A stretch of DNA of 64,000 nucleotides from Candidatus Eiseniibacteriota bacterium (GCA_903844735.1 CAIMUX010000021.1:1-64000); one strand, 5' to 3'. Positions 11,226 to 36,349 are shown, counted from the stretch's first letter. The notes: generated from the sequence alone by a model not told the origin. Numbers and translations are program-made.

Positions 11226-12110
11226 CTATTTCCGGACGGAATCCAGTTTGGCTCTTCGTAGCTTCGCCTCCACACTATCCACTCGCGCGTCTTGCTTCTG
11301 CAGAGCGCCCTCCAGCCTCACGAACGCCTGCCCATAGTCGACTTTGCCTTCTAGAACATCAAGCCGTGCTTCGGACTTGGTTACCCGGTTCTCGACCTTC
11401 TGCATCCCACTGGAGTGGTTTGCCACCCATGTAGATGCGAGTGTCACGACTACTGGCAGTATGATGGCGATTGCTGTGACAAGCCATCGCTCACGCGCTA
11501 CCGTCTCCTTTGCGATGGATCGAGATCTCGCCTCAACCTGAAGGCAGTCTCCCGAAATGGACAGCACAGCCTCTTCTGGCGCTTCCGATCGGTCACGGTG
11601 GCCGTACCGCGCCTCCCACGGTGCGCGCGCGGCTGCCGTCAGACGCCAGAAGACAACCGTCGCAATCCGATCGCCCTTCCTCATGGGAAACGGCGAACGG
11701 CCGACGTTGATGAAGCTAAACCAGAGCTTTCCCCTATAGCCCGGATCGATATGTCCCGGGTTGAGCATCAGGATCGGTTGCTGGCGGCGACCGGCCACGG
11801 GGAACGCAAGCGCACCAACGTTCTCAGGCATCGCAAAAGTCTCATGCGACGTGATGATGATCGAATGCCCCGGCTCGAGACTGTGGCTCGTTCTGATTTC
11901 GGTCGCGGGCTTGGACTTCGAGCCGCCACCCTTCTCCCCGGGCAGAACGATGTCGCCGATGTGCAGGTCTATCGAACTCGGCTGAATCGCTGACCCCTCA
12001 CCAAAGGGATCAAGCTTCGTGGCTGACGCGACGGCTGACGGAAATCCGCTTACCATCGGGTTTGGTCCAGAGAGAAGTTGTTCCAGTTCGCTGTCGTTGA
12101 GTAGAGACAT
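11226..12110 (-). CDS. dUTPase/dCTP-deaminase-fold protein with TM and coiled-coil tail
   Basis: The 294-residue product has a dUTPase/dCTP-deaminase domain: AIQPSSIDLHIGDIVL, ETFAMPENVGALAFP, and LNPGHIDPGYRGKLWFSFIN followed by KGDRIATVVFWRL, which is the hallmark GxIDPGYxG motif. From about residue 195 it continues with one hydrophobic segment (WLVTAIAIILPVVVTLASTW) and a charged coiled coil to the end, an unusual addition to this fold. AGGAGG precedes the ATG. dCTP deaminases act as antiphage proteins by depleting dCTP. Here the enzyme would be membrane-tethered. Whether deaminase residues remain cannot be settled by eye; it could also be a dUTP-binding sensor. Confidence 0.7.
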   Translation of the reverse strand: MSLLNDSELEQLLSGPNPMVSGFPSAVASATKLDPFGEGSAIQPSSIDLHIGDIVLPGEKGGGSKSKPATEIRTSHSLEPGHSIIITSHETFAMPENVGALAFPVAGRRQQPILMLNPGHIDPGYRGKLWFSFINVGRSPFPMRKGDRIATVVFWRLTAAARAPWEARYGHRDRSEAPEEAVLSISGDCLQVEARSRSIAKETVARERWLVTAIAIILPVVVTLASTWVANHSSGMQKVENRVTKSEARLDVLEGKVDYGQAFVRLEGALQKQDARVDSVEAKLRRAKLDSVRK

Positions 12111-12156
12111 TACATCCTCCTCAGGTTCAGGATGGCTGTCGCCGGATGTCCCGGGA

Positions 12157-13323
12157 TCAGCGCACCGCCAACTGGCTTCTCCGAACGCAGTCCACGATGA
12201 GAGAAGCCGCCATCTCCACCTCATCGATCGACGTGAACTTGCCTAATCCCATGCGTAGTGATCCTTCGGCCAAGTGCTCCCCCATACACAATGCTCGAAG
12301 AACATGTGAAGGACCTACAGCACCGGACGAGCATGCCGATCCAGTGGAGAGCGCCACTACTCGTCTCAAGGTCGCGACCACCGCAGATCCCGAGAGACCG
12401 GGAATGGACACATGCAAATTGCCCGCGAGACGATTCCGCAAGTCCCCATTCACGACCAACTCCGGCACGGCAGCCTTCAGCATGTTCTCCAGCAGATTAC
12501 GTCTCTCGGCAATCGCCGGCTCATCCAACTCCATTTCGAGCCTACGCAGGCGACAGGCTTCTCCGAGCCCTGCGATCCCGGGTACGTTCAGGGTGCCCGG
12601 ACGAACGCCTCCCTCCTGCACCCCACCGACGAATGGTGGATCCACATCCGCCCGCGACGCGAGGCAGAGAGAGCCAATCCCTTTGGGTCCATACAACTTG
12701 TGACCACTCAACGCCAGGAAATCGAGTCCGGAGTCGTCGAACTGGACTGGTACCTTCCCAACGGCCTGCGTTGCATCGGTAAGAAGTTTGACCCCGCGCT
12801 TCTGGGTAATCGCCGCGACATCTGGCAACGGATATACCGTGCCGACCTCGTTGTTCGCCGCCATGATGCACGCGAGATCGAGTCCGTGACGGCAGATGCC
12901 ATCGAGGTGATCGAGGTCGAGCCGACCTTGGCTGTCCACTCTGAACTCCACGAGAGTCGCCCAGCCGTCCTGGACCATTTTCCTGCAGACTTCGAGGACG
13001 GCAACGTGCTCGACAGGAAGCACACCGAGTGAAACCCTTCGTCCAGGCGCTTCCCGCATTCGTCTGTGCACATATCCTTGAATCGCGAGATTCAGCGCTT
13101 CCGTTGCTCCGGACGTGAAGATCACCCGCTCCGGCGTGGTCCCAACGAGCCCGGCCACCTCGGCGCGCGCAGCCCGTACGACGTCTTCGGCTTCGTCGCC
13201 CACGGCGTGATCGCTCTCCGGATTCCCGAAGGTCCGCTCCATGCATTCACGGACCCGCTTGCCCACTCTCGGATCCATGGGCGTTGTAGCGTGGTAGTCG
13301 AGATAGATCACGCGATTGCACAT
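12157..13323 (-). CDS. sspA: Cysteine desulfurase (SspA/DndA/IscS-like)
   Basis: The 388-residue PLP enzyme begins NRVIYLDYHATTPMDPRV. It has the PLP histidine region VEHVAVLE, the lysine in LSGHKLYGPKG (Lys209) and the catalytic cysteine in STGSACSSG (Cys331). Length and motifs match NifS/IscS desulfurases, which move sulfur from cysteine to a partner. GGAGGT lies upstream of the ATG. It follows the ATP-pyrophosphatase gene by 31 bp, so its likely partner is that protein in DNA phosphorothioation (SspA in the Ssp system, DndA in Dnd). A housekeeping Fe-S role is less likely in this operon. The symbol is given by context. Confidence 0.8.
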   Translation of the reverse strand: MCNRVIYLDYHATTPMDPRVGKRVRECMERTFGNPESDHAVGDEAEDVVRAARAEVAGLVGTTPERVIFTSGATEALNLAIQGYVHRRMREAPGRRVSLGVLPVEHVAVLEVCRKMVQDGWATLVEFRVDSQGRLDLDHLDGICRHGLDLACIMAANNEVGTVYPLPDVAAITQKRGVKLLTDATQAVGKVPVQFDDSGLDFLALSGHKLYGPKGIGSLCLASRADVDPPFVGGVQEGGVRPGTLNVPGIAGLGEACRLRRLEMELDEPAIAERRNLLENMLKAAVPELVVNGDLRNRLAGNLHVSIPGLSGSAVVATLRRVVALSTGSACSSGAVGPSHVLRALCMGEHLAEGSLRMGLGKFTSIDEVEMAASLIVDCVRRSQLAVR

Positions 13324-13354
13324 CCTAGTGACCTCCGGATTCAGGTCCGGCGAC

Positions 13355-14146
13355 TCATACCTGGCACACGATGCACGGCTGATTCCCATCTTCCTCGTCC
13401 AGTGTTGCGGCGAGCACCTCTGCAAGAGGTGCGTTCGGCCCACGTCTCGTCTGCATTCGCGCGATGGACCTCTCGTGCTCAGCGACAATGGCATCTCGCC
13501 GTGCGAGGAGCTCCATCAGCGTCTCTCCCTGCGTCCACGTGTACCGTCGCCCGTCACTGTGCGACGACTCATAGGCGACCGCCTGCGCGAAGAGATCCGG
13601 GTGCTCCTCGGCCAACCTGACCCACTCGTACTTGCGTTGAAAGAAACAGAAGAAACAGCCCGATCGGCTCCGCCAGCGGTAGTAGCTCGGTAGCCCGATA
13701 CCGCTGTCTTCAAGGAGGCGGAGAATATCCGCCTTGACCAGACCTTCGTCTCGAAACGGAAATACCGCCGTGATGTTCGGCTTGGTGGAGATGTAGCCAA
13801 CGCGGTTTTCGTCCGCACGGATGCCGACATAGCTCACAGCTTCATCTGAGCCAACAAACTGTTCGAGAGGGATGATCTTGAGTTGCTTCGTACACCAGCG
13901 CATCTTCGGGGAGGGAAGCAACCCACCGTAGATGCTCAGCCAATGATCGAAGCCACGTTCAGCGCTGAGATAGTTGATTCGGATCCCCAGCCGCGCCTTG
14001 ATTCGGTCCAGGTACTCGTACGTCTCTTGTAGCTCTTTCCCTGTATCGCAGAAGAAGTACTCCATCTGGGGAAGCCGGTCATGCATGAGCACCGCGAGTG
14101 CCGTACTGTCCTTCCCTCCTGATAACCCGAGAATGTGCCTAGCCAC
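13355..14146 (-). CDS. sspD: PAPS-reductase/ATP-pyrophosphatase-like sulfur-transfer protein (SspD-like)
   Basis: The 263-residue protein has the PP-loop SGGKDS right at its N-terminus (residues 9-14), then MEYFFCDTGKEL, MRWCTKQLKIIPLEQF and a C-terminal CFFCFFQRKYEW cysteine pair. These are the marks of PAPS-reductase-like ATP pyrophosphatases used by DndC and SspD to activate the DNA backbone for sulfur insertion. The GTG start is chosen because GGGAGG lies six bases upstream and it begins immediately before the PP-loop strand. It overlaps the ATPase gene by 8 bp. It is much shorter than DndC and so closer to SspD. Confidence 0.75.
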   Translation of the reverse strand: MARHILGLSGGKDSTALAVLMHDRLPQMEYFFCDTGKELQETYEYLDRIKARLGIRINYLSAERGFDHWLSIYGGLLPSPKMRWCTKQLKIIPLEQFVGSDEAVSYVGIRADENRVGYISTKPNITAVFPFRDEGLVKADILRLLEDSGIGLPSYYRWRSRSGCFFCFFQRKYEWVRLAEEHPDLFAQAVAYESSHSDGRRYTWTQGETLMELLARRDAIVAEHERSIARMQTRRGPNAPLAEVLAATLDEEDGNQPCIVCQV

Positions 14147-17100
14147 GAGATGCCTCCCTCTTGAGCCGGGGCGCACTCTTTTCATTTCGTTCCGAATGGC
14201 TTGCGCCGATGAGTTGTTCCAGCACGGTCACGGCGATCGCGTGCCGTTGATGTTCGGGGCTCACGGCGCGCAGTTCTTCCAGCAGCCGCGCCACGTGTGC
14301 GTTGACCTGCTGTGATTGATCGGCATCCAACCACACGAGGTCGGACAGCTCGACGCCGTCCGCTCGAGTGATGGTGATCCTTCGTGCCTCATATCCGACC
14401 GCATGATTCCGTGCGGCTTCCTTCTGGAGTGCTTCGAGATTCGCGAAGCGTCGAACCATGTCGGCGACATTCGTTTCGAAGGCGACGGCATTCGATTCCG
14501 ACCACGTCTCCAACGGACGGTCGGCAATGATCATCACGAGCGATTCTAGCCATTGGCGCTCATCGCCCTCCGAGCGCGAGGCGGCCATAATGAAGCTTCG
14601 AAGTCGCGGCTCGATGCACTGACCCGCGAGGTACTGAGCGCGAATCCGGAGATCCTCGCGCAGGCCGGCAGGAGTACTCCTGATGCCGAATGCTCCATAG
14701 ATCATGTTTCTGCACTCGCCGAGAAGAGATTCATAGTAGAGGCTCAGATCCCGGAGGGCCGCCTGTAACGTCTGCCGAAACCGGTGATAGTCAGCGCGCT
14801 TGCCGCGCGCGTCATGCTGGAAAGGCGGGAAACCGCAGGCTTCGGGAAGCGCCTCGAACAGCAGTCGGTCCGGCTCCGAGGCCGTAAGGAGCGCCTGACG
14901 CACCTGGCGAGCAATCTCGCTGACCCGCTCCGTGGTGAGGGTGACCTTGGGCAATGTCGTCGCGAATCGAACGAGTGGTCGAACAACGCCAAGAAGCGTG
15001 GCGTTTCGAGTTCCCCCGGCTTGCGCGGGAGCCGACTCGCTAAGCATGGATTCGAGGTCGCGGAAGAGTTCCCGACGAATCCCTGTCAGCACGAAATGCT
15101 TCACCGCGAAATCAACCGGGTGCTTGACGAGCAATTCGAAATGCTCCGGTCCCAGCACCGGGATGAACGAGCCTTCCCGGTACACCGTCAGGTCCTCTTC
15201 ATGGGCGACGAGCACCGCGGCCAAGAACACCGGAATGATCCCGCGCTTCACCCCATACGGCGGCGCTTCGAGGAGGCTGTAGAGCTGATCAAGGGTCCGT
15301 GAGGTTTCCTTCGCATCGAGGCAGAAGTCCTCGATGCCTTTCCACAAGGCCGACACGTCGTCGCCCTTCGGAGAGTGGACACCCCACCGGGTGCTCTCCT
15401 TGCGATGGATGCCGGTCTTCTGAAAAAGGGACGCATACATGCTGTACGCCGGGCCATTCCCGACAAGTCCCAGGCGCTCCTCGTCCGCGTGGGTCAAGAG
15501 CGCCTCAATCAGTTCGCGCTGGGCCCGCGCGCCCTGGGAGGTCAGCTCACGACGGTTCACGAGTTCATTCCACAGGATCGGTGTGTAGGGGTATGCAGTG
15601 TCACATACACCGGAAAGCGCGGATCGAAAGTCCGCCGCGGCCGCCTTCCGGCCCTGAATCCAGAGCCTCTCAAACCGTCTCGGATCCAATGCGTTACGGA
15701 GCGCACCGTCGAGCACGTCCTGCGCAAGGCGCAGGCGCATCCGCACCTCCCGTCGCGCGACGCCGTCCGTCTGCAACTCCAGTGCACTCCGCTCAAGCGT
15801 CCGCAACGCGGCGAGCTCGAACACCGCGGAACGGATGGTGTCCGGTTCCTGGATACGTGCAACGACAAGAGGTCTGCCGTCCTCGGTGCACTCAGGAATG
15901 GCCGCCGGCTCCTTGTGGCCCACCCAGTACGCGACGACCCCGTCTGCGGCGGACGTTTTGCACCGAACCCGCTCTAGCCGCTCCGCGGTATCAATGAAGC
16001 AGCGCTCAAAGTACCGAAGGGTTCCGGTCTTGTAGCTATGTCGCTGGGCAACGATCGGGCCGAGGTCCGCGATTTCGTTGAGCGCCTCAGCGAGTGCCCG
16101 ATGCTCCGACTCGAAATGCATGCGGGCCTCAGCATCGACGTCGAAGTCCGATCCTTGCCAGACACGGAACTCGTCGACTTGGCTCCTGTAGGTCATGAGC
16201 TTCTGCGCGACTAGGCTGTCGAGCACCGAATGCCATTTCCGTATCTCTGCTCTGTCCCCCGGGACCCCGAGGAGCGCCGCCGTCACGAGCCCGCGGCTTG
16301 CGCGAAGGGGTCCGGTGGTGCTCAACAGGTTCAGTGTCGCGATGGTCTTCAATGCTCGCAGCTCGTCTTTCCCGAGACCCCGGGCATCCTGCACGACCCC
16401 ATGTACCTCAGCCCAACGCTGCAGTTGGGGCCGCGCTGCCGCTCCGCCGCTCAGGATGCTCGCGAAGTAGTTGTACACCTCGTCGAGCTGAAGCGTCGGC
16501 AGGTAGTCAGAGGAGGCTGACACTTCATCGACGAATTGCCGCAGTCCATGCGGCTCGTTGCTCGTGAGAAACGTAAAGAGGGATCGGTCGTTCTGCGCGA
16601 AACGGCTGCAAAGTGACGGCAGAATAAGCGCAACGAGTGGATGCAACGGGTAGGCTGCATCGATCAGTTCCGGCAGGAGAATCCGCGCGACGTACGGGTG
16701 GGATACTTGCTCGGTCAAGTACTTGTGCCAGCTACGCGCTCTCCGGCCCAGAGCTGCGTCCACGTCCGCCGGAACCTTGCGTTCGATGGCCCTTCCGAGA
16801 AGAAACAGCATTTCTTCTGTTGGGCCGGTGAAGGTGATGTCCTCGAAACGGCCTTGGACCTTGTCCCATTCATTGCGTTCCGCAAGGCTGAGCGTCGTTC
16901 CGTACTCAGCGAATGCCTGGTGGAGCAACCCCGCTAGCAGGATGGGAGACTCGTCATTCCCCGCTGTACTTTCTGCGAGCTGCTGCAGCAGGTAGAGGTC
17001 TTGGGTCCCGTTGCCCGATCCTGCACTTTCGAGGACCTTGCCAAGCTCGTCAATGATGAGGAGCAGGCCCGTGCGCGACGCCCGGGCCAGATCCCGTGTC

Positions 17101-17636
17101 AGCTCCGCCAGGTGGGTGGTATCTGCCGTTTGTCCTTCGCTAATCGAGGCCTGGAGGCCCCGGAGCTGATCGAGCGCCTTTGGCCGCACTCCTCTCCGCT
17201 TAGACCAAAACGTCTCGGCCCCGTTGAGCACAGCGCGGAGCACGGTGTGCCCGATCGGTTCCCTTCTACCGACGGCGATCGCACGAATCATCCCTTCTTC
17301 CGCAACACGAGTCTGGAAGTGCTTCGCAAGGGACCTCGTCTCATCGTCCGCATTCAGGAGGCTGCAAGCCCGAACCCGCATCGAGCCTTTCGGTCCAACA
17401 AGTGTCGCCAGAAAGTGCGCAAACGCTGACTTGCCGGAGCCGTAAACGCCGGTGATCGTCCAGGCCCGTGCGCTCCCGGGCGAGATCTGCGCAAGCACTA
17501 TTCTCCGCAGTGCGGCGGAGACACGCGGAGTGACCGTGTATCCATCTAGTCCGCCCGCAAGATCGAGGTCACGCTCCAGATTCACGGAGCGTACATACCT
17601 GCGCCTGACGTCGATACACCTCGAAAGGGAGATCAT
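14139..17636 (-). CDS. sspC: Large P-loop ATPase of the phosphorothioation system (SspC-like)
   Basis: The 1,165-residue protein has Walker A GVYGSGKSAF (GSGKS at 66-70) and a Walker B LLLIIDELGKVLE near residue 200, followed by a long, mostly helical region with no other recognisable domain. It starts at an ATG that overlaps the stop of the DUF4007 gene by four bases, so the two are co-translated. In Ssp systems SspC is an ATPase working with SspB and SspD in single-strand phosphorothioation; that role is assigned by gene order. BREX BrxC proteins are similar in size and also ATPases, but the flanking genes do not fit BREX. Confidence 0.65.
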   Translation of the reverse strand: MISLSRCIDVRRRYVRSVNLERDLDLAGGLDGYTVTPRVSAALRRIVLAQISPGSARAWTITGVYGSGKSAFAHFLATLVGPKGSMRVRACSLLNADDETRSLAKHFQTRVAEEGMIRAIAVGRREPIGHTVLRAVLNGAETFWSKRRGVRPKALDQLRGLQASISEGQTADTTHLAELTRDLARASRTGLLLIIDELGKVLESAGSGNGTQDLYLLQQLAESTAGNDESPILLAGLLHQAFAEYGTTLSLAERNEWDKVQGRFEDITFTGPTEEMLFLLGRAIERKVPADVDAALGRRARSWHKYLTEQVSHPYVARILLPELIDAAYPLHPLVALILPSLCSRFAQNDRSLFTFLTSNEPHGLRQFVDEVSASSDYLPTLQLDEVYNYFASILSGGAAARPQLQRWAEVHGVVQDARGLGKDELRALKTIATLNLLSTTGPLRASRGLVTAALLGVPGDRAEIRKWHSVLDSLVAQKLMTYRSQVDEFRVWQGSDFDVDAEARMHFESEHRALAEALNEIADLGPIVAQRHSYKTGTLRYFERCFIDTAERLERVRCKTSAADGVVAYWVGHKEPAAIPECTEDGRPLVVARIQEPDTIRSAVFELAALRTLERSALELQTDGVARREVRMRLRLAQDVLDGALRNALDPRRFERLWIQGRKAAAADFRSALSGVCDTAYPYTPILWNELVNRRELTSQGARAQRELIEALLTHADEERLGLVGNGPAYSMYASLFQKTGIHRKESTRWGVHSPKGDDVSALWKGIEDFCLDAKETSRTLDQLYSLLEAPPYGVKRGIIPVFLAAVLVAHEEDLTVYREGSFIPVLGPEHFELLVKHPVDFAVKHFVLTGIRRELFRDLESMLSESAPAQAGGTRNATLLGVVRPLVRFATTLPKVTLTTERVSEIARQVRQALLTASEPDRLLFEALPEACGFPPFQHDARGKRADYHRFRQTLQAALRDLSLYYESLLGECRNMIYGAFGIRSTPAGLREDLRIRAQYLAGQCIEPRLRSFIMAASRSEGDERQWLESLVMIIADRPLETWSESNAVAFETNVADMVRRFANLEALQKEAARNHAVGYEARRITITRADGVELSDLVWLDADQSQQVNAHVARLLEELRAVSPEHQRHAIAVTVLEQLIGASHSERNEKSAPRLKREASRG

Positions 17637-18790
17637 GCGACAATCCTCCGGCGGACGTTCCCCTTGTAGTGGCGTTTGACAAATGCGCGCGAGAGGGCTT
17701 GTGGGTCTTCGGTGAACGCCAGTTGAACGAGGCCTGCCGTGTCGGAAAGGCGAATGCGCGGATCTACTACCGCAGCGTCCTCCAGGGCCTCATACAGAGT
17801 ACTCTCGTTGAGTTTGAGCAGCACTCCGGGACTGTGCGGCTCGCGAAGAAGGCGTGAGATCGAGATCGTCTTCGCGCTCGTCGAGAGATTCGCCGCAAAT
17901 TCCAGCGACATCGCCGTGACGAGATCGCTCGAGAGTCCTTGCTTTGCGCCGACATTGAATGCATAGGTGCGTTTCTGACCAGGAAGCTGCCGGATCAGGC
18001 CGAGTTCGACAAAGGGGCAATGGATCGAATCCTCATCGACGACCGGACCATGGGCAACTTCTGCATACATGCGAATGATGCAGTTCACGTCTTTCCGCAA
18101 CGAGCTAGGAACCACCCGCGAAGCTGGGGCTTCTCGCGCCAACCACTCCTCGAGGCCCCCAGCGAGATCATCGGCCGTGAATTCCAGCCGTGGAAAGAGC
18201 CCAAACGAAAACTGCCAGGCGCTTGCCCAACACGGATGCGAGAGGAGCTTCCAGTGAAGGAGCCAGAGTGACCCGGGGTCCTCGAGGTGAGGATCCATTC
18301 CGCCATCAGGAAGGAGTGACGATCCGAATTCCGTCGGAACGAGGCCATGGGAATTGCGGGAAGACCCTTCGCGTTCTGTAAGTACTTTGAACGCGACGCA
18401 CCAATAGCGAATGGCGCGCACCATGTTCTTGCCAACACCGAGGACAACAGGAGCATCGTCCTGGAGGAAAATCGAAGGGTCTTTCAGGGCGGCGTCGTAC
18501 CCCTTCTTGATCCAGCCGAATCGAGGATGGAAGGTCTCGTGACGCGCGAAGACAAAGGGAGAGACGCCGATATCGTCTGCCCTCCTGACGTGATCGCGGA
18601 CGGCATTCGTGGGTGCCGTGCGGGCTGCCAGCTTCCGTCCGGAACCCGGAACCTTCAGCTCCCTGGTCTTCTTCCTGTCCTGCAAAGCCCCTCCTGCCGG
18701 ACGGACATCATCCCGCGAACTGGCCGATCCGTAAACCCGCGAGGTCGGAGCTGGCCGCTGTCGACCACTAGGAAGTTCCCGCTTCTTCAT
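17633..18790 (-). CDS. sspB: DUF4007 protein (SspB-like nickase)
   Basis: The 385-residue protein opens with a basic, disordered stretch of about 60 residues. Then comes the DUF4007 signature FARHETFHPRFGWIKKGYDA and VVLGVGKNMVRAIRYWCVAF, extending to about residue 330. SspB of the Ssp phosphorothioation system is a DUF4007 protein that nicks DNA at the modification site, so this is the probable specificity/nicking component. The ATG was chosen because it overlaps the upstream HTH gene by only 23 bp and has AAAGGA upstream. It is followed by the SspC-like gene with a four-base overlap. Confidence 0.7.
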   Translation of the reverse strand: MKKRELPSGRQRPAPTSRVYGSASSRDDVRPAGGALQDRKKTRELKVPGSGRKLAARTAPTNAVRDHVRRADDIGVSPFVFARHETFHPRFGWIKKGYDAALKDPSIFLQDDAPVVLGVGKNMVRAIRYWCVAFKVLTEREGSSRNSHGLVPTEFGSSLLPDGGMDPHLEDPGSLWLLHWKLLSHPCWASAWQFSFGLFPRLEFTADDLAGGLEEWLAREAPASRVVPSSLRKDVNCIIRMYAEVAHGPVVDEDSIHCPFVELGLIRQLPGQKRTYAFNVGAKQGLSSDLVTAMSLEFAANLSTSAKTISISRLLREPHSPGVLLKLNESTLYEALEDAAVVDPRIRLSDTAGLVQLAFTEDPQALSRAFVKRHYKGNVRRRIVA

Positions 18791-19106
18791 GCTGCCGTCC
18801 TTTCCTCGTCGGTTCAGAGTGGGTCGCGACCATTGAATCAAAGAGTGGTCCAAACGGAGACCCTGGCGGGATCTGCCCGAGCTGCAGGTAGACTTCGCGT
18901 TCGGAACATCCGATCAGCGAGGCGATTAGGAACGCCCAGGATGGGGGCAGCGACTCCTGCCGGAGCACCTGACTCACGCGGCCAGGCGACACCCCCGCCG
19001 CACGAGCAAGGTTGCGGATGCCGCCGGGCACGGCGGCTATTACGATGCGTGGCCCGCCGAGGTGCTCGATGGCCCGCAGCGCCAACGGTGTGATCTGCGT
19101 TTCCAT
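18768..19106 (-). CDS. Small HTH regulator heading the Ssp-like operon
   Basis: The 112-residue protein has a Cro-like HTH: VPGGIRNLARAAGVSPGRVS then QVLRQESLPPSWAFLIASLIG, with helix-turn-helix spacing as in lambda-type repressors. It is the first gene of the leftward operon and overlaps the DUF4007 gene by 23 bp. A perfect 14-bp palindrome lies 20 bp before its ATG. Together these suggest an autorepressor that keeps the modification operon in check. The C-terminal 40 residues are basic and unassigned. Confidence 0.7.
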   Translation of the reverse strand: METQITPLALRAIEHLGGPRIVIAAVPGGIRNLARAAGVSPGRVSQVLRQESLPPSWAFLIASLIGCSEREVYLQLGQIPPGSPFGPLFDSMVATHSEPTRKGRQHEEAGTS

Positions 19107-19285: not shown

Positions 19286-21022
19286 CTACTTTATGTTCTT
19301 CACCTTGCCCATGAGGGAGTCGAGGAACTGGCCCCAGTACGACCGCAGTTCGCCGTACCGCTCCTGCGGGTCCTCGTGCATGGACTCGGCCTTGCCGTAG
19401 GCGATCAGCAGAAGTGTCAGCGCCTCGATGGTCCGTTTCGCGGCTTGGACCGCCTGCTCGGGAGAGATTGCTCCGGCCGAGCGCTGAGCGATCTCATTCA
19501 CAGGCTCCCAGAGTTCCCGGTAGAACCGGTGACGAGTGTTGAGCCGGATGATCACCTTGTCGTTCAGGTGCTGGAGGTCGATGAAGTTCGTTCCGGGAAA
19601 GTCCACGGATTCCACGACGAACGGCTGATCCTTGATTCGATCGAGATAGACCTGCTTCTCCGCGTCATTCGTGCGTCCCACGTCCGTTGCAAGGTCGTCG
19701 AGGATTCTCTTCTCTTCATCCGGAGCGGGACCCTTGACTCTCGGCTTCGGCAATGTCCGATTCGCCTCGGCAGCGGCCTCCACGACCGGCGCGTGCTCGC
19801 CGTCCTTGTCATGGTCCTCACGTTGCACCGCTCCCCATCGCTCCTCAAGCTGCGTCCGGGCAGCCTGAAGCAGCTTCTTCAGGCGCTTACTCATCTCCGC
19901 ACGAAACTCCTCGTGTGGTTCTACCCCTCGCTTGACGTTCCGAACACCGAAGAACTCGTCGTGATCAGGGGTGAACGACACCTCGATCCCGACGAAGCGA
20001 TCCTGCCACTCCACGCCTCCGGGGAAGAGACGAGGAACATTCGTGTAGTTGATCTCGCGGTCGAGTCGGATGAAGCTGATTGCTCCCCAATTCTCGGGAA
20101 CTCGGAGAGCTTTCGCAAACTTGTCGCCCCCAAGCCCACGCTTACGCGTCACCTCCTTCGGGTAGAGGGTCACGCGAAGACGCGCTTGGGCGTCGCCGAC
20201 CTCGATTGTTTCATCCCCGAGGACAGTACCGGGGTAGTGGTGGTCGGGTCGCGTGGTCTTTGCCTTGCCCTTACCCTCCGACTTGCCGCCGTCGAGCGAC
20301 TCCTCAATGACCTTGTCGGCCCAGGTTCCCTCCATGAGAAGGAGCGGGTCATGGGGCAGGAGATCCGTACCGTTGACGGCGATCCTTATCCCACCGGACA
20401 GGAAGTACCGGAAGATCCGCGAAAGCTCCTTCTCCACCTCGACGCGCAGTTTGTTGGCATCCGCAGCCCGCCGACCTTCTTCGAGCCGATCCACCTTGGA
20501 CCAGACCACGACCGTTCCAGACCCCCTTGGGAAGAACTCCGCCAACTCCGGTGGACCGGTGGACTGATTCGGCTCCTCGATGAAGATCTCCTCCCCGTTC
20601 TCCTCCTGTGCGAGAGCTTCGTCCAAGTCGAACCGGACATACAGCCATCCCTCGTTGTCGCGGGTTCTGCTCCACACCTCAATCCGGCGACCGAAATTCA
20701 GTGCTGCGAGTTTGGCTCCGACACCATACTTGCCAATGGTCTTCTTGGACATGTATCGGGTCGAGAAGCCGAGCTGTAGGTAGTGCTGCAGAGTCTCCGG
20801 GTCCATTCCGCGACCATCGTCCGCGATCACGATCTGGTGTACCCGCTTCTTTGCGTTGGCGCCCTCCTCTTCAAGCAGCCACAAATCGATATTGTTCGCG
20901 GCGGCCTCCAGGCTGTTGTCGACCGGCTCGCCGAGTGCGGCAGCGAGACTGTAGCCCGAATCTCGAAGCGACTGTAGAGCCTGACCGGAGCGAATGACCG
21001 GAATTCCCGTCTTCGTCTTCAT
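19286..21022 (-). CDS. MORC/Hsp90-type GHKL ATPase
   Basis: The 578-residue protein has a GHKL ATP-binding domain at about residues 10-200: LGEPVDNSLEAAANNIDL (N-box Glu and Asn), IADDGRGMDPETL (Mg/adenine loop) and GKYGVGAKLAALNFGRR (G2 lid), in the arrangement of MORC, MutL and Hsp90. The central part (about 300-400) resembles the ATPase-coupled S5-like fold, and the C-terminal 150 residues are helical. The ATG has AGGAG upstream. It is the last of three leftward genes after a sigma-like and a GIY-YIG gene. MORC-type ATPases clamp DNA and recur in predicted restriction and defence loci. The function here is unknown. Confidence 0.7.
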   Translation of the reverse strand: MKTKTGIPVIRSGQALQSLRDSGYSLAAALGEPVDNSLEAAANNIDLWLLEEEGANAKKRVHQIVIADDGRGMDPETLQHYLQLGFSTRYMSKKTIGKYGVGAKLAALNFGRRIEVWSRTRDNEGWLYVRFDLDEALAQEENGEEIFIEEPNQSTGPPELAEFFPRGSGTVVVWSKVDRLEEGRRAADANKLRVEVEKELSRIFRYFLSGGIRIAVNGTDLLPHDPLLLMEGTWADKVIEESLDGGKSEGKGKAKTTRPDHHYPGTVLGDETIEVGDAQARLRVTLYPKEVTRKRGLGGDKFAKALRVPENWGAISFIRLDREINYTNVPRLFPGGVEWQDRFVGIEVSFTPDHDEFFGVRNVKRGVEPHEEFRAEMSKRLKKLLQAARTQLEERWGAVQREDHDKDGEHAPVVEAAAEANRTLPKPRVKGPAPDEEKRILDDLATDVGRTNDAEKQVYLDRIKDQPFVVESVDFPGTNFIDLQHLNDKVIIRLNTRHRFYRELWEPVNEIAQRSAGAISPEQAVQAAKRTIEALTLLLIAYGKAESMHEDPQERYGELRSYWGQFLDSLMGKVKNIK

Positions 21023-21091
21023 CGGACCTACTCCTCTCTTGTTTGGCACAGGCCGCCGTGTGGTCGACCTGTGCACGGAAAGGTTGCGTAC

Positions 21092-21532
21092 CTACTCTCT
21101 CGTACCCGCTACCGACGCATATTGCGATTCTGCATGAAACCGGCGGAGTGCGTCGGTCAACCCCGCTTCATCGTCCATCGAACAGAAGGGACAACTGAGC
21201 CCCGACCCGGTGGGGCTGGCGGGGTGAATCAGATTCAACCCGCCGAGTTCGCCGGCCAACCTGTGGTACCAAAACGCCTCCAAGCAGAAGGCACGGACGG
21301 AGCTGTTGCAGGGTTCCCACAGGAAGTGCGTCGCGATCCCGAGCAAGGGATGACCCGTCAATCGCGAACGAACACAGTGATCGGAACGACCGATGTAAAG
21401 CGGGTTCTCCCCCGACAGCAGAAGATATGCTCCCTGTGTCCGAATCGGGACCATCGCCCGAACGACCCGCTGCTTGAACCGGAACGCGAAGCGATGCGCC
21501 TCGGTCCAACGGAGTATCACCGGCTTTTCCAT
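21092..21532 (-). CDS. GIY-YIG nuclease-like protein
   Basis: The 146-residue product contains GAYLLLSGENPLYIGRSDHC, a GIY-YIG core in which the first motif reads GAY and the second YIG, followed by RSRLTGHPLL with the conserved arginine and histidine. A CPFC pair is seen near residue 115. The size fits a minimal nuclease with a short C-terminal extension. Its ATG overlaps the stop of the sigma-like gene (TGATG) and it precedes the GHKL ATPase by 69 bp. It is probably the DNA-cutting member of the three-gene unit, with the ATPase as partner; this is inference. A metal-ligand glutamate expected later in the domain was not firmly located. Confidence 0.6.
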   Translation of the reverse strand: MEKPVILRWTEAHRFAFRFKQRVVRAMVPIRTQGAYLLLSGENPLYIGRSDHCVRSRLTGHPLLGIATHFLWEPCNSSVRAFCLEAFWYHRLAGELGGLNLIHPASPTGSGLSCPFCSMDDEAGLTDALRRFHAESQYASVAGTRE

Positions 21533-22059
21533 CAGGCGGCCTCGGGACGCGCGATGAAGGTCTGTGCCATCTCGCGGATCTGTGCCCGCAGACGCTTGAT
21601 CCGCCTCGAAGGCTGCCCGAGTCGGGCGGCACTTTCGGCCACACTGTCCTCGGCCAGCATGCTTTCAAAGCACCTGCCGGCGATGGTGCCAAGCCTCCGC
21701 GCCCCCTCCCGAAGCCTCTCTTCCAGGTCACGGACTTCGGCCAGGTCACATGTGGATTGTCGGCCAACCCCGCCCACCTCTCGGCCCTCCGCGATTGCTC
21801 GGCCCAGATCCGAACCTTCGGTGAGGGGATCGAGCAGGAATTCCTGGCGACGGCGCCGGCGGTTGATCCGTTTCGCGTCGCGCCATGCCTGATAGAAGAG
21901 CGAGTCAGCATCGGCGGCAGATCGACGGCTACTCATCGCGAGGTGTACCGCGCGATCCGCAGCCTCAAATGGTTCGGATCCTGGGGGAAATCGCTTGGCG
22001 ATGGACTGAAAGCGAAGGACGACGCCAACGCGGCCGTCATTCAAGGTAGGCGTATTCAC
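21532..22059 (-). CDS. Sigma-70-like HTH protein
   Basis: The 175-residue protein resembles a shortened sigma factor. SAADADSLFYQAWRDAKR looks like region 2, and RCFESMLAEDSVAESAARLG followed by QPSRRIKRLRAQIREMA looks like the region 4 helix-turn-helix. Between them lies an arginine-rich and glycine-rich linker. It starts at GTG and its stop overlaps the next start by one base, so it leads the sigma/GIY-YIG/GHKL unit. It may drive expression of the unit or serve as a DNA-binding adaptor. No anti-sigma partner is adjacent. Family placement is moderate, by pattern only. Confidence 0.5.
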   Translation of the reverse strand: MNTPTLNDGRVGVVLRFQSIAKRFPPGSEPFEAADRAVHLAMSSRRSAADADSLFYQAWRDAKRINRRRRRQEFLLDPLTEGSDLGRAIAEGREVGGVGRQSTCDLAEVRDLEERLREGARRLGTIAGRCFESMLAEDSVAESAARLGQPSRRIKRLRAQIREMAQTFIARPEAA

Positions 22060-29323: not shown

Positions 29324-32300
29324 GTGAAGAAGGGCGCATATGAAGCGATTACTGGAATGGCGTACTCGACTCCAGGACCCCACGACACGGGCCCGGAGAG
29401 AGACACCGAAACCGCGGTGATTGGCGGCGTCGCGATGAGCCAACAGGAGCTTCTCACCGCTCAGTTCTACGAATGGGAGAAGCGCGGCCGGGGCTGGCTG
29501 ATCCACCCGTTCCCCGTCGAGCTTGAGCCGCCATTCGTCCCCTTCAAGTACCACTGGGTTCCGCCGCTTCAGTCTGACGCCGACGACGGACGAAAACCGA
29601 CGATAGTCTCCCGAATCACGGAGGGTATCGAACGCATCGTCACCGGAAAGCGCCGGCCGACAGTGTCGTGGGATTTCGACGAACTGGATCCGGAGAAGCC
29701 GGAGATTGAGCTTGATGAAGACGATTCTCCGATCATCGAACTGAAGCTTTCGGTTCCGCCCCCGCTCAAGGTCTCTCGGGAGGCGGTCGAGCAGTTTCTT
29801 GCAAGCCTTCCCGTCGCGGTCGGCCCGCTATCGTTTGAGGTCGTCGGACTCGCTGACTCGATCACCGCCCACCTGGTGGTCCGGGAACCCGACGCGGCGA
29901 AGGTCTCCCAGCAGCTCAAGGGCTACTTTCCCGAAGTCGTCCTGACCCAGGAGAACGGTTTCCTCCGGTCGGCTTGGGAAGCGTCGCCGGATGGGAACGA
30001 GATCCTGGTCGACTTCGGGCTCTCCCACGAATTCATGCTGCCGCTTCGCACCTTCAAGGGTTTCGAAATCGATCCCCTGATCGGTGTGGTTTCGGCGCAT
30101 TCGGACCTCGAAAAGGGAGAAGTCGCCGTCGTGCAAGTGCTCTTCCAGGCGGTCCGCCATCCGTGGGCTAAGAACATAATGCGGGCGGTTCTGGATCACG
30201 AGGGGAAAGCTTTCTTCGAGGATGCGCCGGAGATCGCGGTGGCGGCCAAAGCGAAGATCGCGCATCCGCTCCTTGCGGCGGTCGTCCGGATCGGCGTGAA
30301 AAGCCCGGACCTAGGTCGCGCCTGGGAGATCGCCCGGGCGGTCGGCGGAAGCCTTCGGAGCTTCGCCAATCCGGCCGGGAACGAGTTCATGCCGCTAGCA
30401 AACGACGGATACGATGAGGTCGAGCACGAGTCGGATCTGTTGCTCCGCAAGAGCCACCGGAGCGGAATGATCCTCTCAACCGAGGAGCTCGTCTCTCTGG
30501 TTCACCCGCCCTCGGCCTCCGTGCGGGTCGAGAAACTGAAACGCGAGGAACGGAAGACACGGGCCGCGCCGGCGATTGCCACCGGATCCGGGCTGCTGCT
30601 CGGCGTGAATGTCCACGCCGGGAAGACCGTGCAAGTAGCGCTCACGGCGGACCAGCGGTCACGGCACATGTACGTGATCGGTGCTTCCGGTACAGGGAAA
30701 TCCACTCTGCTTCTGAACCTCATCCTGCAGGATCTGAAGACGGGCCAGGGTGTCGCCGTCCTGGATCCGCATGGTGATCTCATAGACCAGATCCTGGAGC
30801 GAGTGCCGGAAGAGCGGATCGACGACGTTATCCTCTTGGATCCGGCCGATTCTGAATACCCGGTGGGGTTCAACATCCTCTCGGCGCACTCCGAGCTCGA
30901 AAAGACGCTCCTCTCATCCGATCTCGCCTCCGTTTTCCGGAGACTCTCCACTTCGTGGGGCGATCAAATGACCTCGGTCCTGGGGAACGCCATCCTCGCC
31001 TTCTTGGAAAGCGATCGGGGTGGCACCCTCATCGATCTGCGCCGGTTCCTCGTGGAGAAGAGCTTCCGAGACGAATTCCTCGCAACGGTCCGCGATCCTG
31101 ACGTCGTGTACTACTGGCAGAAGGAGTTCTCCCTCCTCAGAGGGAGCCCACAGGCTTCGATCCTCACCCGTCTCGATACATTTCTCCGGCCGAAGCTCAT
31201 CCGGTACATGGTGGCGCAGAAGGACGATCGCCTCGACTTCCGGAAGATGATGGATGAGGGGAAGATCCTGCTCGCCCGGCTCTCCCAGGGTGCGATCGGA
31301 GAGGAGAACGCACACCTTCTCGGCAGTCTCCTCGTCTCGAAGCTCCAGCAGATCGCCATGAGCCGCCAAGAGGTGGCTGAAGCCGAGCGCCGACCGTTCT
31401 ACGTCTACATCGACGAGTTCCAGAACTTCATCACGCCCACCATGGAGCAGATCCTCTCCGGTGCACGGAAGTACCGGCTGGGCCTGATCCTGGCGCACCA
31501 AGATCTCCGGCAGATCGGCGGCAAGAGTCCGGAGGTGTTGAGTTCGGTGCTCTCGAATCCGTATACGCGGATCTGCTTCCGGGTCGGCGACCAGGACGCC
31601 CGGACCCTGGAGAGCGGTTTCGCCTCCTACGAAGCCAAGGATCTCCAGAACCTCGGCATTGGCCAGGCGATCGCCCGGGTCGAACGGGCGGAGTACGACT
31701 TCAACCTGGACACCCCGAGACTCGCCGAGACCGATCCCGACGAAGCCCGCGCTCGCAGAGAGCTGGTGATCGCCCGGTCGCGGGAAAAGTACGGCATGCC
31801 ACGGGAGGAGATCGAGGCGATCCTGCAGCGCTCCGTTCCTGGCCGGGCTCCGATCCGGCCCGTCGAACCCGTCCCACAAAAGACGGCGATCCCCGAACCT
31901 CTCCCGCTGGCGCCGGCACCCATCAGCGCGGAACGACCGAAGCGAGCGGAACCTCCAACGGCACCTCCAACGGCACCTCCGTCAGCGGTACCAAGCCCTG
32001 GTCGGGGCGGTCAGCAGCATAAGTACCTGCAAGAGCTCATCAAACGGTGGGCCGAGTCGCGGGAATGGCGGGCAACCATCGAGGAGAAGATCCTCGACGG
32101 TCTCGGCAGTGTGGATGTTGCCCTGCGGAAGGGCGACCAATCGGTCGCTTGCGAGATCGCCGTCACGACCACGTCGGACCACGAAGTCGGAAACGTCCAG
32201 AAGTGTATCGCGGCCGGGTTCGGGCACGTGCTAGTCGTTTCTTCCGAAAAGAAGACGCTGAATCAGGTGCGCCAGCAGGCGGGAAGCACCTTCGACGAAG

Positions 32301-32512
32301 AGCAACTCAGGCGTATTCACTTCTGCACGCCTGAGGAGGCTTTCACCGCACTGGAGGCGATCGAGGCGGAAGCCGCGAGCACATCCGGAACGGTTCGCGG
32401 ATACAGGGTGAGGACGAAGTATAAGCCAATGGAAGATCGAGAGAAGGCGGTGAAACGGCAAGCGGTGTCCGGCGTGATCGCAAAGGCGATAAGGCGGCTG
32501 GGCGGAGCTTGA
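29324..32512 (+). CDS. VirD4/TraG-like coupling ATPase with nuclease-like tail
   Basis: The 1,062-residue protein has an N-terminal domain of about 430 residues, then a HerA/VirD4-type motor: Walker A VIGASGTGKSTLLLNLI, Walker B-like VAVLDPHGDLIDQIL, YVYIDEFQNFITP and GARKYRLGLILAHQDLRQI. A proline-rich linker (PTAPPTAPPSAVP) leads to a C-terminal domain with SVDVALRKGDQSVACEIAVT, which resembles a PD-(D/E)XK strand pair with ExA in place of ExK. Such proteins pump DNA during conjugation, but no relaxase or VirB4 is near, so a defence-type translocase is also possible. The start is uncertain: GTG here, or ATG 33 or 111 bp later. Confidence 0.7.
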   Translation: MKKGAYEAITGMAYSTPGPHDTGPERDTETAVIGGVAMSQQELLTAQFYEWEKRGRGWLIHPFPVELEPPFVPFKYHWVPPLQSDADDGRKPTIVSRITEGIERIVTGKRRPTVSWDFDELDPEKPEIELDEDDSPIIELKLSVPPPLKVSREAVEQFLASLPVAVGPLSFEVVGLADSITAHLVVREPDAAKVSQQLKGYFPEVVLTQENGFLRSAWEASPDGNEILVDFGLSHEFMLPLRTFKGFEIDPLIGVVSAHSDLEKGEVAVVQVLFQAVRHPWAKNIMRAVLDHEGKAFFEDAPEIAVAAKAKIAHPLLAAVVRIGVKSPDLGRAWEIARAVGGSLRSFANPAGNEFMPLANDGYDEVEHESDLLLRKSHRSGMILSTEELVSLVHPPSASVRVEKLKREERKTRAAPAIATGSGLLLGVNVHAGKTVQVALTADQRSRHMYVIGASGTGKSTLLLNLILQDLKTGQGVAVLDPHGDLIDQILERVPEERIDDVILLDPADSEYPVGFNILSAHSELEKTLLSSDLASVFRRLSTSWGDQMTSVLGNAILAFLESDRGGTLIDLRRFLVEKSFRDEFLATVRDPDVVYYWQKEFSLLRGSPQASILTRLDTFLRPKLIRYMVAQKDDRLDFRKMMDEGKILLARLSQGAIGEENAHLLGSLLVSKLQQIAMSRQEVAEAERRPFYVYIDEFQNFITPTMEQILSGARKYRLGLILAHQDLRQIGGKSPEVLSSVLSNPYTRICFRVGDQDARTLESGFASYEAKDLQNLGIGQAIARVERAEYDFNLDTPRLAETDPDEARARRELVIARSREKYGMPREEIEAILQRSVPGRAPIRPVEPVPQKTAIPEPLPLAPAPISAERPKRAEPPTAPPTAPPSAVPSPGRGGQQHKYLQELIKRWAESREWRATIEEKILDGLGSVDVALRKGDQSVACEIAVTTTSDHEVGNVQKCIAAGFGHVLVVSSEKKTLNQVRQQAGSTFDEEQLRRIHFCTPEEAFTALEAIEAEAASTSGTVRGYRVRTKYKPMEDREKAVKRQAVSGVIAKAIRRLGGA

Positions 32513-33648: not shown

Positions 33649-34724
33649 CCCCGTTGCACAGAAAGTCGAGAAAGAAGTCTGTTGCAGCTTTCTTCAGGCG
33701 CGATTGGGTGTTTCGAACGGCGGTCTGCGCTTTCGAGAGGTCGACCCACTCGTGGTTTCGCTTTTTGTGTTTCGTGGCGGTTCAGCTGGCAGTTCTCGTC
33801 TTGATTCCGATACTGTTTATCATACTCAAGCACGGTTCGCCGGACTTGGTTCTGAAGAATGGGAGCCTGCGGACTGACGTGATGCTGGTCATCCTTGCCG
33901 TCATCGGGAGTGTGGTGGGACACCGTTGGCTTCTCCGGACGCTCTGGCTGCCACATCAGCTTCGCCGCTCTGGAACCATGACTGTGCAGCAGTGTCTTGC
34001 CGTTCGATCCCACCTTCGACGGGTCTCGGACGGATTGCTCTGGCGAGTCGTTCCGGCATTCGCGACCATCCTACTTGCATGGTACTGGTTGGCGGAGCTC
34101 CACGAGCCGTATTCATTTCAGGAGTACCCAATCCTTCGGTTGTGGCTGTTACTGCCATACACCGTTTGGTGGTACCTCATTCTGCGAACCGCAACCCTCC
34201 TGATACTGTTCGTCCGACCGATCCGGCACTGCGTGACCAGAGGCCAAGTCTCGCCGAATCTCCTCCATCGGGACGGGGTCAGCGGTTTCTCACCAGCGGG
34301 CGACGCGACTCTCTGGTTCATGCTGTTATACACCAACGTGGGCGTGTACTTTCTCATGAGCATACGAGGCCCTGCACGAGCACAGGACGCACTCATGATG
34401 TCGTTCCTCATGGTCTATCTCACAACTCCGCTCGTTTGGGCGGCTTGGTTTCTCTATCCGTTCGTACGTGCTGTGCGCTCCGAAAAAGTCGCACAACTGC
34501 GTCGACTTGAACTGCAGGAAGCACGTGTACCGGCCTCTGGAGAGGATCGTGGCGCGATCGCGGAAACACTAGACCGGTACCAGCTTCACGGACTCATCCA
34601 GCGGTGTCCCGAATGGCCGTTGCGCTTCCGTGGCGTTCGCGCTGTCGCAGCAGGAATGTCTCATCTTCTGCCCGTGGCTCTAAAACTCGCCTTGGATCAT
34701 GGCTTGCTTCCCCCATTGCGCTGA
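33645..34724 (+). CDS. Polytopic membrane protein between recombinase copies
   Basis: The 359-residue protein has about six hydrophobic helices, for example FLCFVAVQLAVLVLIPILFI, VMLVILAVIGSVVGHRWLL, LRLWLLLPYTVWWYLILRTA and MMSFLMVYLTTPLVWAAWFL, with a soluble C-terminus of 80 residues. GGGGAGAG precedes the ATG, which overlaps the end of the recombinase fragment. No family is recognised. Composition is lower in GC than the neighbours. Its position between a broken and an intact copy of the same recombinase suggests that it is recent cargo. Confidence 0.55.
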   Translation: MTPLHRKSRKKSVAAFFRRDWVFRTAVCAFERSTHSWFRFLCFVAVQLAVLVLIPILFIILKHGSPDLVLKNGSLRTDVMLVILAVIGSVVGHRWLLRTLWLPHQLRRSGTMTVQQCLAVRSHLRRVSDGLLWRVVPAFATILLAWYWLAELHEPYSFQEYPILRLWLLLPYTVWWYLILRTATLLILFVRPIRHCVTRGQVSPNLLHRDGVSGFSPAGDATLWFMLLYTNVGVYFLMSIRGPARAQDALMMSFLMVYLTTPLVWAAWFLYPFVRAVRSEKVAQLRRLELQEARVPASGEDRGAIAETLDRYQLHGLIQRCPEWPLRFRGVRAVAAGMSHLLPVALKLALDHGLLPPLR

Positions 34725-34816
34725 CTGGTGAGATGGAAGGCCCAGGTGAGGTTGTTGACTTGAGGAGGACCAGCACCCACGGTCAAGAAGCGGACCGGCA
34801 CTCGGAGGATCTCGAA

Positions 34817-36349
34817 ATGAAAACTACTAGGCCTTCCGACGATCGCACGATGCCGGCCTCAAAACCCGTGGGCATCTGGATTCGCGTTTCGACCGAGGAC
34901 CAGGTTCGGGGCGAGAGTCCGGAACACCACGAGAAACGCGCCCGGATGTACGCCGAGGCCAAGGGCTGGCGGGTGCGTGAGGTCTATCATCTCGAAGCCA
35001 TGTCGGGGAAGTCGGTCATGGGCTACGCCGAGACCGACCGCATGCTGGAGCACATTCGGTCTGGGCACATCTCGGCGCTGGTCTTCTCGAAACTCGCCCG
35101 CCTGGCCCGAAACACCCGAGAGCTTCTGGAGTTCGCGGACATCTTCCGGGACCACGGCGCGGATCTGATCTCGCTCTCCGAGGCGATCGATACTTCGACT
35201 CCGGCCGGGCGGCTCTTCTTTACGGTCGTCGCGGCCATGGCCCAGTGGGAACGGGAGGAGATCGCGGAACGGGTGGCCGCATCCGTACCCATCCGAGCAC
35301 AACTTGGAAAGCCCCTCGGCGGTGCCGCCCCCTTCGGTTACCGCTGGGAGAATCGGGAGCTGATCCCGGACCCGAAAGAGGCTCCAGTCCGCAAGCTCAT
35401 GTACGAGCTCTTCTTGGAGCACAAACGCAAGAAGGCTGTCGCCCGTCTGCTGAACGAGAAGGGCTACCGGACCCGGAACGGCTCGAACTTCACGGATACG
35501 ACCGTGGACCGGCTCCTCCGGGACCCGATGGCGAAGGGCATCCGCCGAGCGAACTACACGAAGTCTCTGGGCGCGAAGAAACACTGGAAGGTGAAGCCGG
35601 AGGACGAGTGGGTCCTAACTCCAGTCGAGCCAATAGTCTCCGAGGAAACCTGGCTCAAAGCGAACGCGATCCTCAACGAACGGCGGCGGAAAGATGAGTG
35701 CGAGACGAAGAAGACTGTTCATCTTTTCGCCGGGGTCGTCTTCTGCCACTGCGGCCAGAAGATGTACGCCCTCTCGAACAGTCCAAAGTACGTTTGCCAG
35801 AAGTGCCGTAACAAGATCCCGATCGACGACCTCGAAGCCGTCTTCGCCGAACAGCTCAAAGGCTTCTTCCTCGATCCTCAGGAGATCACCCAATATCTCG
35901 GCCAAGCGGACGAGACGATCAAGACGAAGGACGAAGCTCTCCGAGCCCTCACCGCCAAACGAGAAAGCCTCGTCCGGGAAATGGACAAGATCCACCGTGC
36001 CTACATTACCGATGCGATCACGGTCCAGGGTTACGGTCGGCAGTACCAACCACTCGAGGAGCGACTCAATCAAATCGAGGAGGAACTCCCCAGACTCCAA
36101 GGAGAAGTAGACTTCCTCAAAATCCAACTCCTCTCCAGCGACGAAATCCTGACGGAAGCCAAGGACCTCACCGCCCGTTGGCCGACACTCGCCCCCGAAG
36201 AGAAGCGGCAAATCGTCGAACATGTCGTCGAGCGAATCACCATCGAAAAAGACGCCGTTGAAATCCACCTTTGCTACCTCCCTACCGCTTCAGAAATCGC
36301 TGCAAATGGGCAACGCAACCTCAAGGATTCATCGCCCCCACAAGCATGA
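34817..36349 (+). CDS. Large serine recombinase (island integrase)
   Basis: The 510-residue protein is a complete large serine recombinase. The catalytic domain has IWIRVSTEDQ (Arg23, nucleophile Ser25), LVFSKLARLARNTRELLEFA and MAQWEREEIAERVAAS. The recombinase domain includes GAAPFGYRWENRELIPDP and KGYRTRNGSNFTDTTVDRLL. The zinc ribbon has FCHCGQKMYALSN with YVCQKC, followed by a coiled coil. GGAGGA precedes the ATG. Its last codons (from about 36,321) lie in host comM sequence read antisense, so the C-terminus is completed by the chromosome after integration. It is the likely enzyme for integration into comM. Confidence 0.9.
   Translation: MKTTRPSDDRTMPASKPVGIWIRVSTEDQVRGESPEHHEKRARMYAEAKGWRVREVYHLEAMSGKSVMGYAETDRMLEHIRSGHISALVFSKLARLARNTRELLEFADIFRDHGADLISLSEAIDTSTPAGRLFFTVVAAMAQWEREEIAERVAASVPIRAQLGKPLGGAAPFGYRWENRELIPDPKEAPVRKLMYELFLEHKRKKAVARLLNEKGYRTRNGSNFTDTTVDRLLRDPMAKGIRRANYTKSLGAKKHWKVKPEDEWVLTPVEPIVSEETWLKANAILNERRRKDECETKKTVHLFAGVVFCHCGQKMYALSNSPKYVCQKCRNKIPIDDLEAVFAEQLKGFFLDPQEITQYLGQADETIKTKDEALRALTAKRESLVREMDKIHRAYITDAITVQGYGRQYQPLEERLNQIEEELPRLQGEVDFLKIQLLSSDEILTEAKDLTARWPTLAPEEKRQIVEHVVERITIEKDAVEIHLCYLPTASEIAANGQRNLKDSSPPQA
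36321..36349. other. Right island-host junction (attR region)
   Basis: On the minus strand, comM reads to GCGATGAATCCT and is then closed by TGA at 36,323-36,321. Intact YifB/ComM proteins continue after this Asn-Pro with a Cys-Pro-Cys-Gly segment, so the crossover must lie within a few bases of 36,321-36,331. The same 29 bp encode the last residues of the integrase on the plus strand. The exact core cannot be set without the left junction. Confidence 0.65.

Follow-up and report, generated by a model that had tools for sequence, protein, structure and literature searches.

A sigma-like, GIY-YIG and MORC-type ATPase gene unit linked to DNA phosphorothioate modification, a candidate restriction arm beside SspABCD

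The stretch of DNA analyzed here (the window) comprises 64,000 nucleotides from Candidatus Eiseniibacteriota bacterium (GCA_903844735.1, CAIMUX010000021.1:1-64000). Reading of its ORFs placed on the minus strand a trio of genes encoding a sigma-like HTH protein, a GIY-YIG nuclease and a GHKL ATPase. Past the trio and in the same direction, a small HTH gene is followed by sspB, sspC, sspD and sspA, as listed below.

21532 to 22059, minus strand: sigma-like HTH protein, all-helical and two-domain, 175 aa, GTG start
21092 to 21532, minus strand: GIY-YIG nuclease with a C-terminal CPFC pair, 146 aa, catalytic residues invariant in homologues
19286 to 21022, minus strand: MORC/MutL-type GHKL + S5 ATPase, 578 aa from ATG 21022 (longest ORF from GTG 21076)
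18768 to 19106, minus strand: small HTH protein between the trio and sspB, 112 aa
17633 to 18853, minus strand: SspB (DUF4007), PADLOC SspB 6.8e-107, likely start at an ATG at about 18790
14139 to 17636, minus strand: SspC (BrxC-like ATPase), PADLOC SspC, 1253 bits
13355 to 14185, minus strand: SspD (PAPS-reductase family sulfur-transfer enzyme), PADLOC SspD 1.7e-112
12157 to 13494, minus strand: SspA (cysteine desulfurase, domain from about residue 58), PADLOC SspA 5.6e-117

A preliminary description of this DNA had reported three leftward genes, the first two sharing one base, between a modification operon and a restriction-modification gene. All three ORFs are indeed in place, with the sigma-like and GIY-YIG genes overlapping by one base in a TGATG at 21532. 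The flanks were also named correctly, in that all four of SspA, B, C and D were recognized by PADLOC in the neighboring operon, a DNA phosphorothioate (PT) system, and an MmeI-type IIG enzyme is encoded in the opposite orientation on the other side. However, the link to PT had been missed, and the MmeI IIG gene is not a conserved partner, as it was not recognized at other trio loci in ORF lists read by eye. The small HTH gene starts 180 bases past the ATPase stop, with a G+C-rich inverted repeat in between, and its position and overlap with sspB suggest that it probably encodes a regulator of the ssp operon. As for the ATPase, ATG 21022 appears to be a likelier start than GTG 21076, because a strong ribosome site (AGGAGT) precedes it. 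Elsewhere in the window, a dCTP deaminase/dUTPase-like gene (11226 to 12224) lies immediately past sspA, and an ORF with a caspase-like motif (IIFSGHG ... ILDCC; 4233 to 5423) is perhaps a further defense gene.

The window ATPase matches the Pfam domain HATPase_c_3 (E=3e-21) and has an intact N box (E32, D35, N36), G1 motif (DDGRG) and G2 motif (GKYGVG), with a second, S5-type domain beyond the GHKL domain. The profile of its family matched MORC2 and MORC3 best in the PDB (E about 4e-10), followed by topo VI-B, PMS1 and MutL, so that “MORC-type” is a fair label. An AlphaFold model (pLDDT 80.6) found structural matches in Hsp90, MORC and MutL proteins, with a TMt of 0.60 for both MORC4 and MutL. 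By its three motifs, its S5 domain and the position of MORC as the closest solved relative in sequence, the protein belongs to the MORC/paraMORC-type GHKL ATPases. Its nearest model in PADLOC and NCBIfam is MzaB, at 85.6 bits versus a cut-off of 850; the viral and phage collections yielded distant GHKL relatives and none closer. Identity to homologues ranges from 32 to 62%.

The window GIY-YIG protein alone has no Pfam match. Five of nine members of its family match PF01541 (best 1.1e-4), so the family assignment is made through relatives only, and the family profile aligns with the GIY-YIG domain of UvrC at E=0.11. The active site is complete, with its two-tyrosine motif, Arg, Glu and Asn, and residues G34/Y36, Y46/G48, R57, E85 and N100 are invariant across the nine homologues; the window protein is 28 to 43% identical to its homologues. 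An unannotated archaeal gene of the window type (34% over 99 aa) occurs on a Salinigranum rubrum plasmid (L009:8001-8291), and no match to the ATPase was present in the examined stretch that holds it.

No Pfam match was obtained for the window sigma-like protein either, and Sigma70 region 2 was not found in it, while its relatives gave weak HTH, Sigma70_r4 and ECF matches. The AlphaFold model is all-helical and in two parts, and its nearest solved structures are nearly all sigma factors, at weak values (E of at least 0.076) and with poor superposition. Because these structural matches and the region 4/HTH matches of the relatives are weak, we call the protein sigma-like and not a sigma factor. 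Where the preliminary description saw a sigma-70-like binder, a nuclease fold and a GHKL clamp ATPase, the GIY-YIG residues and the MORC-type motifs agree with it, but the sigma identity has weak matches behind it. This protein is the fastest diverging of the trio (19 to 31% identity to homologues), which would suit a specificity part, and we suggest that it is probably a DNA-binding/specificity subunit.

To place the trio in other genomes, we used a scan queried with the ATPase only, ignoring PT genes; the loci discussed here are the matches listed rather than a census, and neighborhoods in draft genomes end at contig ends. The order sigma-like, GIY-YIG, ATPase recurs on a Nocardiopsis plasmid (L004, where the GIY-YIG gene is unannotated), in Streptomyces and Actinacidiphila (L013 to L016) and in Nostoc (L011). 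Because the same order recurs in other phyla, the trio is a conserved unit whose grouping exceeds chance, and the co-occurrence of the three families that had been proposed as a check on it is found in Streptomyces, Nostoc and the Nocardiopsis plasmid. The earlier view of the three genes as one unit, set in a defense-type neighborhood, holds to that extent, but the GIY-YIG gene is not obligatory. In Kastovskya (L012), G394, G413, Embleya (L017) and G278, and probably also in Aquihabitans (L018), the sigma-like gene and the ATPase gene occur without a GIY-YIG gene between them, and in Arthrobacter (L010) and Streptomyces G154 (L111) the GIY-YIG and ATPase genes occur together and a sigma-like gene could not be detected. 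In Embleya, an Mrr-type nuclease gene (E=7.8e-29) starts about 0.4 kb past the ATPase, and in G278 a PLD/helicase protein is encoded about 1.8 kb downstream of it; PLD-like proteins also occur near the ATPase in Rhodoferax and Streptomyces. Since the GIY-YIG gene is missing at some loci and an Mrr (Embleya) or PLD (G278) protein is found there, the nuclease partner of the ATPase looks exchangeable.

The key context of the trio is PT modification, by Ssp here and by Dnd or Ssp elsewhere. Close homologues of the ATPase lie within 10 kb of SspABCD and SspE in Arthrobacter, of DndB, DndC, DndD and a desulfurase resembling DndA in Streptomyces and one of its relatives (L013 to L016), of a DndD-like gene in Aquihabitans, and of SspB/C/D in Acidobacteria (L019) and Rhodoferax (L020). 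At the Arthrobacter and Streptomyces loci, the trio and the PT operon point toward each other. Nonadjacent cases also occur, with DndC elsewhere in the genome (Nostoc, Kastovskya) or 20 kb away on the same contig (Embleya). Among the matches listed, the genomes of 11 loci were searched for DndC and SspB, and 10 of them have a PT marker (L010 to L017, L019 and L020; DndC in seven, SspB in three); the 11th, L018, is an incomplete MAG with neither DndC nor SspB and only the adjacent DndD-like gene, and the source genome of the window is an additional PT-positive case. On the Nocardiopsis plasmid, which carries the full trio, Dnd/Ssp genes are absent within 12 kb, and this plasmid (the plasmid only was searched) is not among the DndC-bearing plasmids listed. 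A 1153-aa ATPase on it, considered as a candidate SspC, is in fact RecD-like.

This association exceeds chance. In a sample of 277 Streptomyces genomes, DndC occurs in 11 (about 4%) and the ATPase in three, all of which carry DndC on the same contig (Fisher p=0.0012 with the seed left out and related genomes treated as independent). Across Actinomycetota, the background of PT genes is 7/287 genomes (2.4%), and five actinobacterial lineages with the ATPase (L010; L013 to L016; L017; G154; G278) are all PT positive, versus about 2% expected (p about 3e-8, for lineages that are not fully independent). A 5/5 co-occurrence of ATPase and DndC in cyanobacteria was dropped as uninformative because DndC occurs in 192 of 245 genomes of the order of Nostoc.

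A tree of 72 GHKL ATPases, MzaB included, with rows taken from the matches listed, distributes the PT-adjacent rows over two groups, namely, the larger clade holding the window protein (14/27) and a second, mostly Bacteroidota group (8/9), whereas PT linkage is 0/36 for the other rows, MzaB among them. The PT-adjacency label changes nine times on this tree versus 19.1 times when shuffled, and none of 500 shuffles gave a number as low; some of the Bacteroidota rows are near copies on apparent conjugative elements, and L029 has ambiguous letters. The Bacteroidota operons have the order sspB-sspC-sspD-ATPase-GIY-YIG (L029, L036, L059, L060, L070), the last two genes being codirectional with and directly after sspD; one member of their GIY-YIG family has a Pfam match above the cut-off. 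Such ssp-ATPase-GIY-YIG operons (also L043 and L056) are near-identical in several Flavobacteriaceae and have conjugation-like genes downstream, and they probably represent a mobile PT defense cassette. A third type, comprising the ATPase, an SF2 helicase and a PLD-like protein, occurs at Ssp loci in Streptomyces (L028), Bacteroidota (L024) and Rhodoferax (L020); two further SspABCD loci (L042, L124) were assigned to it by the ATPase alone. A C-terminal domain is common to PT-linked families I and III (E=1.6e-12) and absent from MzaB, and the comparison of families I and II is suggestive (3.8e-5). The idea that this domain is common to all PT-linked ATPases was set aside, as the comparison of II with III was not significant, and so was a common origin of the window-type and Bacteroidota-type GIY-YIG proteins, for which the profile comparison was not significant.

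The preliminary description could not match the trio to a nameable defense system, and PADLOC and NCBIfam likewise contain no model for it; their output is limited to the weak match of the ATPase to MzaB, with no convincing match to the sigma-like and GIY-YIG proteins. The closest parallels are SspABCD-SspE and SspABCD-SspFGH, in which the same PT modification genes have a restriction arm adjacent, and the Arthrobacter locus has both SspE and an ATPase/GIY-YIG pair. However, SspE is a DUF262-type nickase, which the trio is not, and SspFGH, with a Walker-A SspF and an FtsK-like SspH (PMC8092258), differs in domain makeup, as no Walker-A F-type or FtsK/HerA-type H domain was found by Pfam in the trio proteins. 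DndABCDE-DndFGH and PbeABCD are comparable in that trio homologues adjoin DndB/C/D in Streptomyces, but neither a GHKL ATPase nor a trio of this kind is part of DndFGH in published descriptions. The MORC/paraMORC ATPases of restriction-modification systems likewise combine GHKL and S5 domains with nucleases in restriction contexts, but their account (Iyer 2008, PMC2292703) does not mention GIY-YIG, sigma or PT. MzaB of MZA aligns with the trio ATPase over GHKL/S5 but not over the C-terminal domain, and it falls in a separate clade without PT linkage. VcSduA, a Shedu protein with a GHKL N terminus proposed to control its nuclease, is a single fused protein with a PD-(D/E)xK nuclease and no reported PT link (PMC12137116), whereas the trio consists of separate genes. 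GHKL or MORC is not mentioned in the main Dnd survey (PMC10853773), and GHKL, MORC and URI are absent from a BREX/PT survey of 2026 (PMC12839542). The open-license literature contained nothing closer on GHKL/MORC proteins with phosphorothioation, and the trio-PT module appears to be undescribed in the papers searched; a preprint or subscription report is possible.

A PT system without a known restriction partner is common: neither SspE nor SspFGH is present at 83.9% of 2,678 sspBCD loci (PMC8092258), and it is common for Dnd modification to occur uncoupled from DndFGH (PMC10853773). Full-length SspE was not found in the source genome, which is 96% complete, with one SspE model; the best match spans roughly 87 residues (E=4.9e-6), and the same model has matches in 7 of 14 control genomes. 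Since this short match is at the domain level only, the trio is a plausible partner of the SspABCD system of this genome.

Given gene identities, intact catalytic motifs, a conserved unit and PT linkage, all of which are observed, we hypothesize that the trio is a PT-dependent restriction/effector arm in which a clamp ATPase licenses an exchangeable nuclease, the sigma-like protein binds DNA, and unmarked DNA is targeted, a reading that we consider moderately probable. Clamp behavior, subunit roles, PT sensing and an unmodified-DNA target are what we infer from genomic context. SspABCD (or Dnd proteins in other hosts) would mark host DNA with PT and so protect it, the MORC/MutL-type ATPase would close on DNA as an ATP-driven dimeric clamp, and the sigma-like HTH protein would supply or tune DNA binding. 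The clamp may then recruit or license the GIY-YIG nuclease, leading to a nick or cut in DNA without the proper PT pattern. The separate pairing of ATPase and GIY-YIG genes in the Bacteroidota operons, the other nucleases near the ATPase and the lack of a full-length SspE match in the source genome also favor this reading. Counting against it are Arthrobacter, where SspE is also present and a sigma-like gene was not detected, the five loci with no GIY-YIG gene beside the ATPase, and the Nocardiopsis plasmid, which has the full trio but no Dnd/Ssp genes within 12 kb.

Attack on unmodified DNA would follow the logic of DndFGH/SspFGH and activation by PT DNA that of SspE, and the genomic association is compatible with both kinds of cleavage. 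It is possible, though in our judgment unlikely, that the trio is an SspE-like effector whose ATPase is stimulated by PT DNA, so that the complex nicks incoming DNA and is silent and nontoxic without PT. SspE itself is PT stimulated (PMC9646914, PMC8092258), and it stands side by side with the ATPase/GIY-YIG module in Arthrobacter, where both logics could share one PT mark; however, family searches recognized no PT-binding domain in the three proteins, and the pairing of MORC-like ATPases with nucleases is usual in restriction-modification contexts (PMC2292703).

We think it very unlikely that the GIY-YIG protein is a last-resort suicide effector, held inactive and destroying DNA when a phage inhibits the PT system. 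That role has been proposed for the standalone URI/GIY-YIG nucleases found at Dnd locus borders (PMC10853773); the GIY-YIG protein is a small stand-alone domain, and the convergent orientation in Arthrobacter and Streptomyces is like that of the opposite-strand border URI genes. On the other hand, the Bacteroidota ATPase and GIY-YIG genes are codirectional with the ssp genes and directly after sspD, and the association of the nuclease with a conserved ATPase points to regulated action on DNA.

Some GHKL proteins, those of the RsbW/SpoIIAB type, act as anti-sigma factors, and the sigma-like protein and the ATPase might accordingly form a sigma/anti-sigma switch on the PT operon, with the GIY-YIG protein as a passenger. 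The several loci with the sigma-like gene and ATPase only, as well as the resemblance of the sigma-like model to sigma factors in fold, would fit such a switch, but we give it very little credence: the ATPase is of the MORC/MutL type with an S5 domain and not RsbW-like, the window sigma-like protein has no Sigma70 region 2 that we could find, nucleases recur beside the ATPase, and the unit is far from PT genes in some genomes. The least credible alternative, an independent type IV-like or restriction-modification-like system that is a mere neighbor in a defense island, draws on the clustering of defense genes and on the Nocardiopsis copy without nearby PT genes but is at odds with PT markers in 10 of 11 genomes against a background of 2 to 4% and with the 0/36 PT linkage of related GHKL ATPases, which are in part defense proteins too.

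Beyond the restriction/effector reading, we consider a broader version quite unlikely, in which the core is the ATPase with its DNA-binding partner, a MORC-like clamp that would read the PT state and entrap or compact unmarked invader DNA, with cleavage of the GIY-YIG, Mrr or PLD type as an add-on. Versions without a nuclease may then silence DNA without cutting it, and such a clamp would parallel, in bacteria, the MORC silencing of eukaryotes, with a backbone mark as its key.

For most PT-modification loci, no restriction partner is known, and a MORC-like ATPase with a swappable nuclease, accompanying both the Ssp and Dnd types of PT, would fill part of this gap. As the cassette recurs in distant bacteria beside sulfur-marking systems, it is a good candidate for one of the missing weapons that use the mark to tell self from invader, and it would connect PT marks with the family of proteins responsible for MORC silencing in eukaryotes. 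The presence of the module in culturable Streptomyces and Arthrobacter would provide an immediately testable system.

Several further observations concern the surroundings of the trio and its relatives. In the window, a gene for a large serine recombinase adjoins a comM/YifB-like ORF that is apparently shortened (34604 to 37547), so this region is possibly an integrative element that entered comM, and a VirD4/TraD-like coupling ATPase in the same region (29324 to 32512) fits a mobile element. Large proteins (723 to 769 aa) with a weak DndB match (PF14072) are encoded near ATPase-bearing Dnd loci (L013:5563-7872, L111:12118-14289). On Photobacterium/Vibrio plasmids (L005, L006, L007), close relatives of the ATPase lie beside a divergent DndC-like PAPS reductase (PADLOC DndC E of 1e-23 to 1e-27 in L006 and L005), near which no other Dnd genes were recognized; this gene possibly belongs to another sulfur-based DNA modification.
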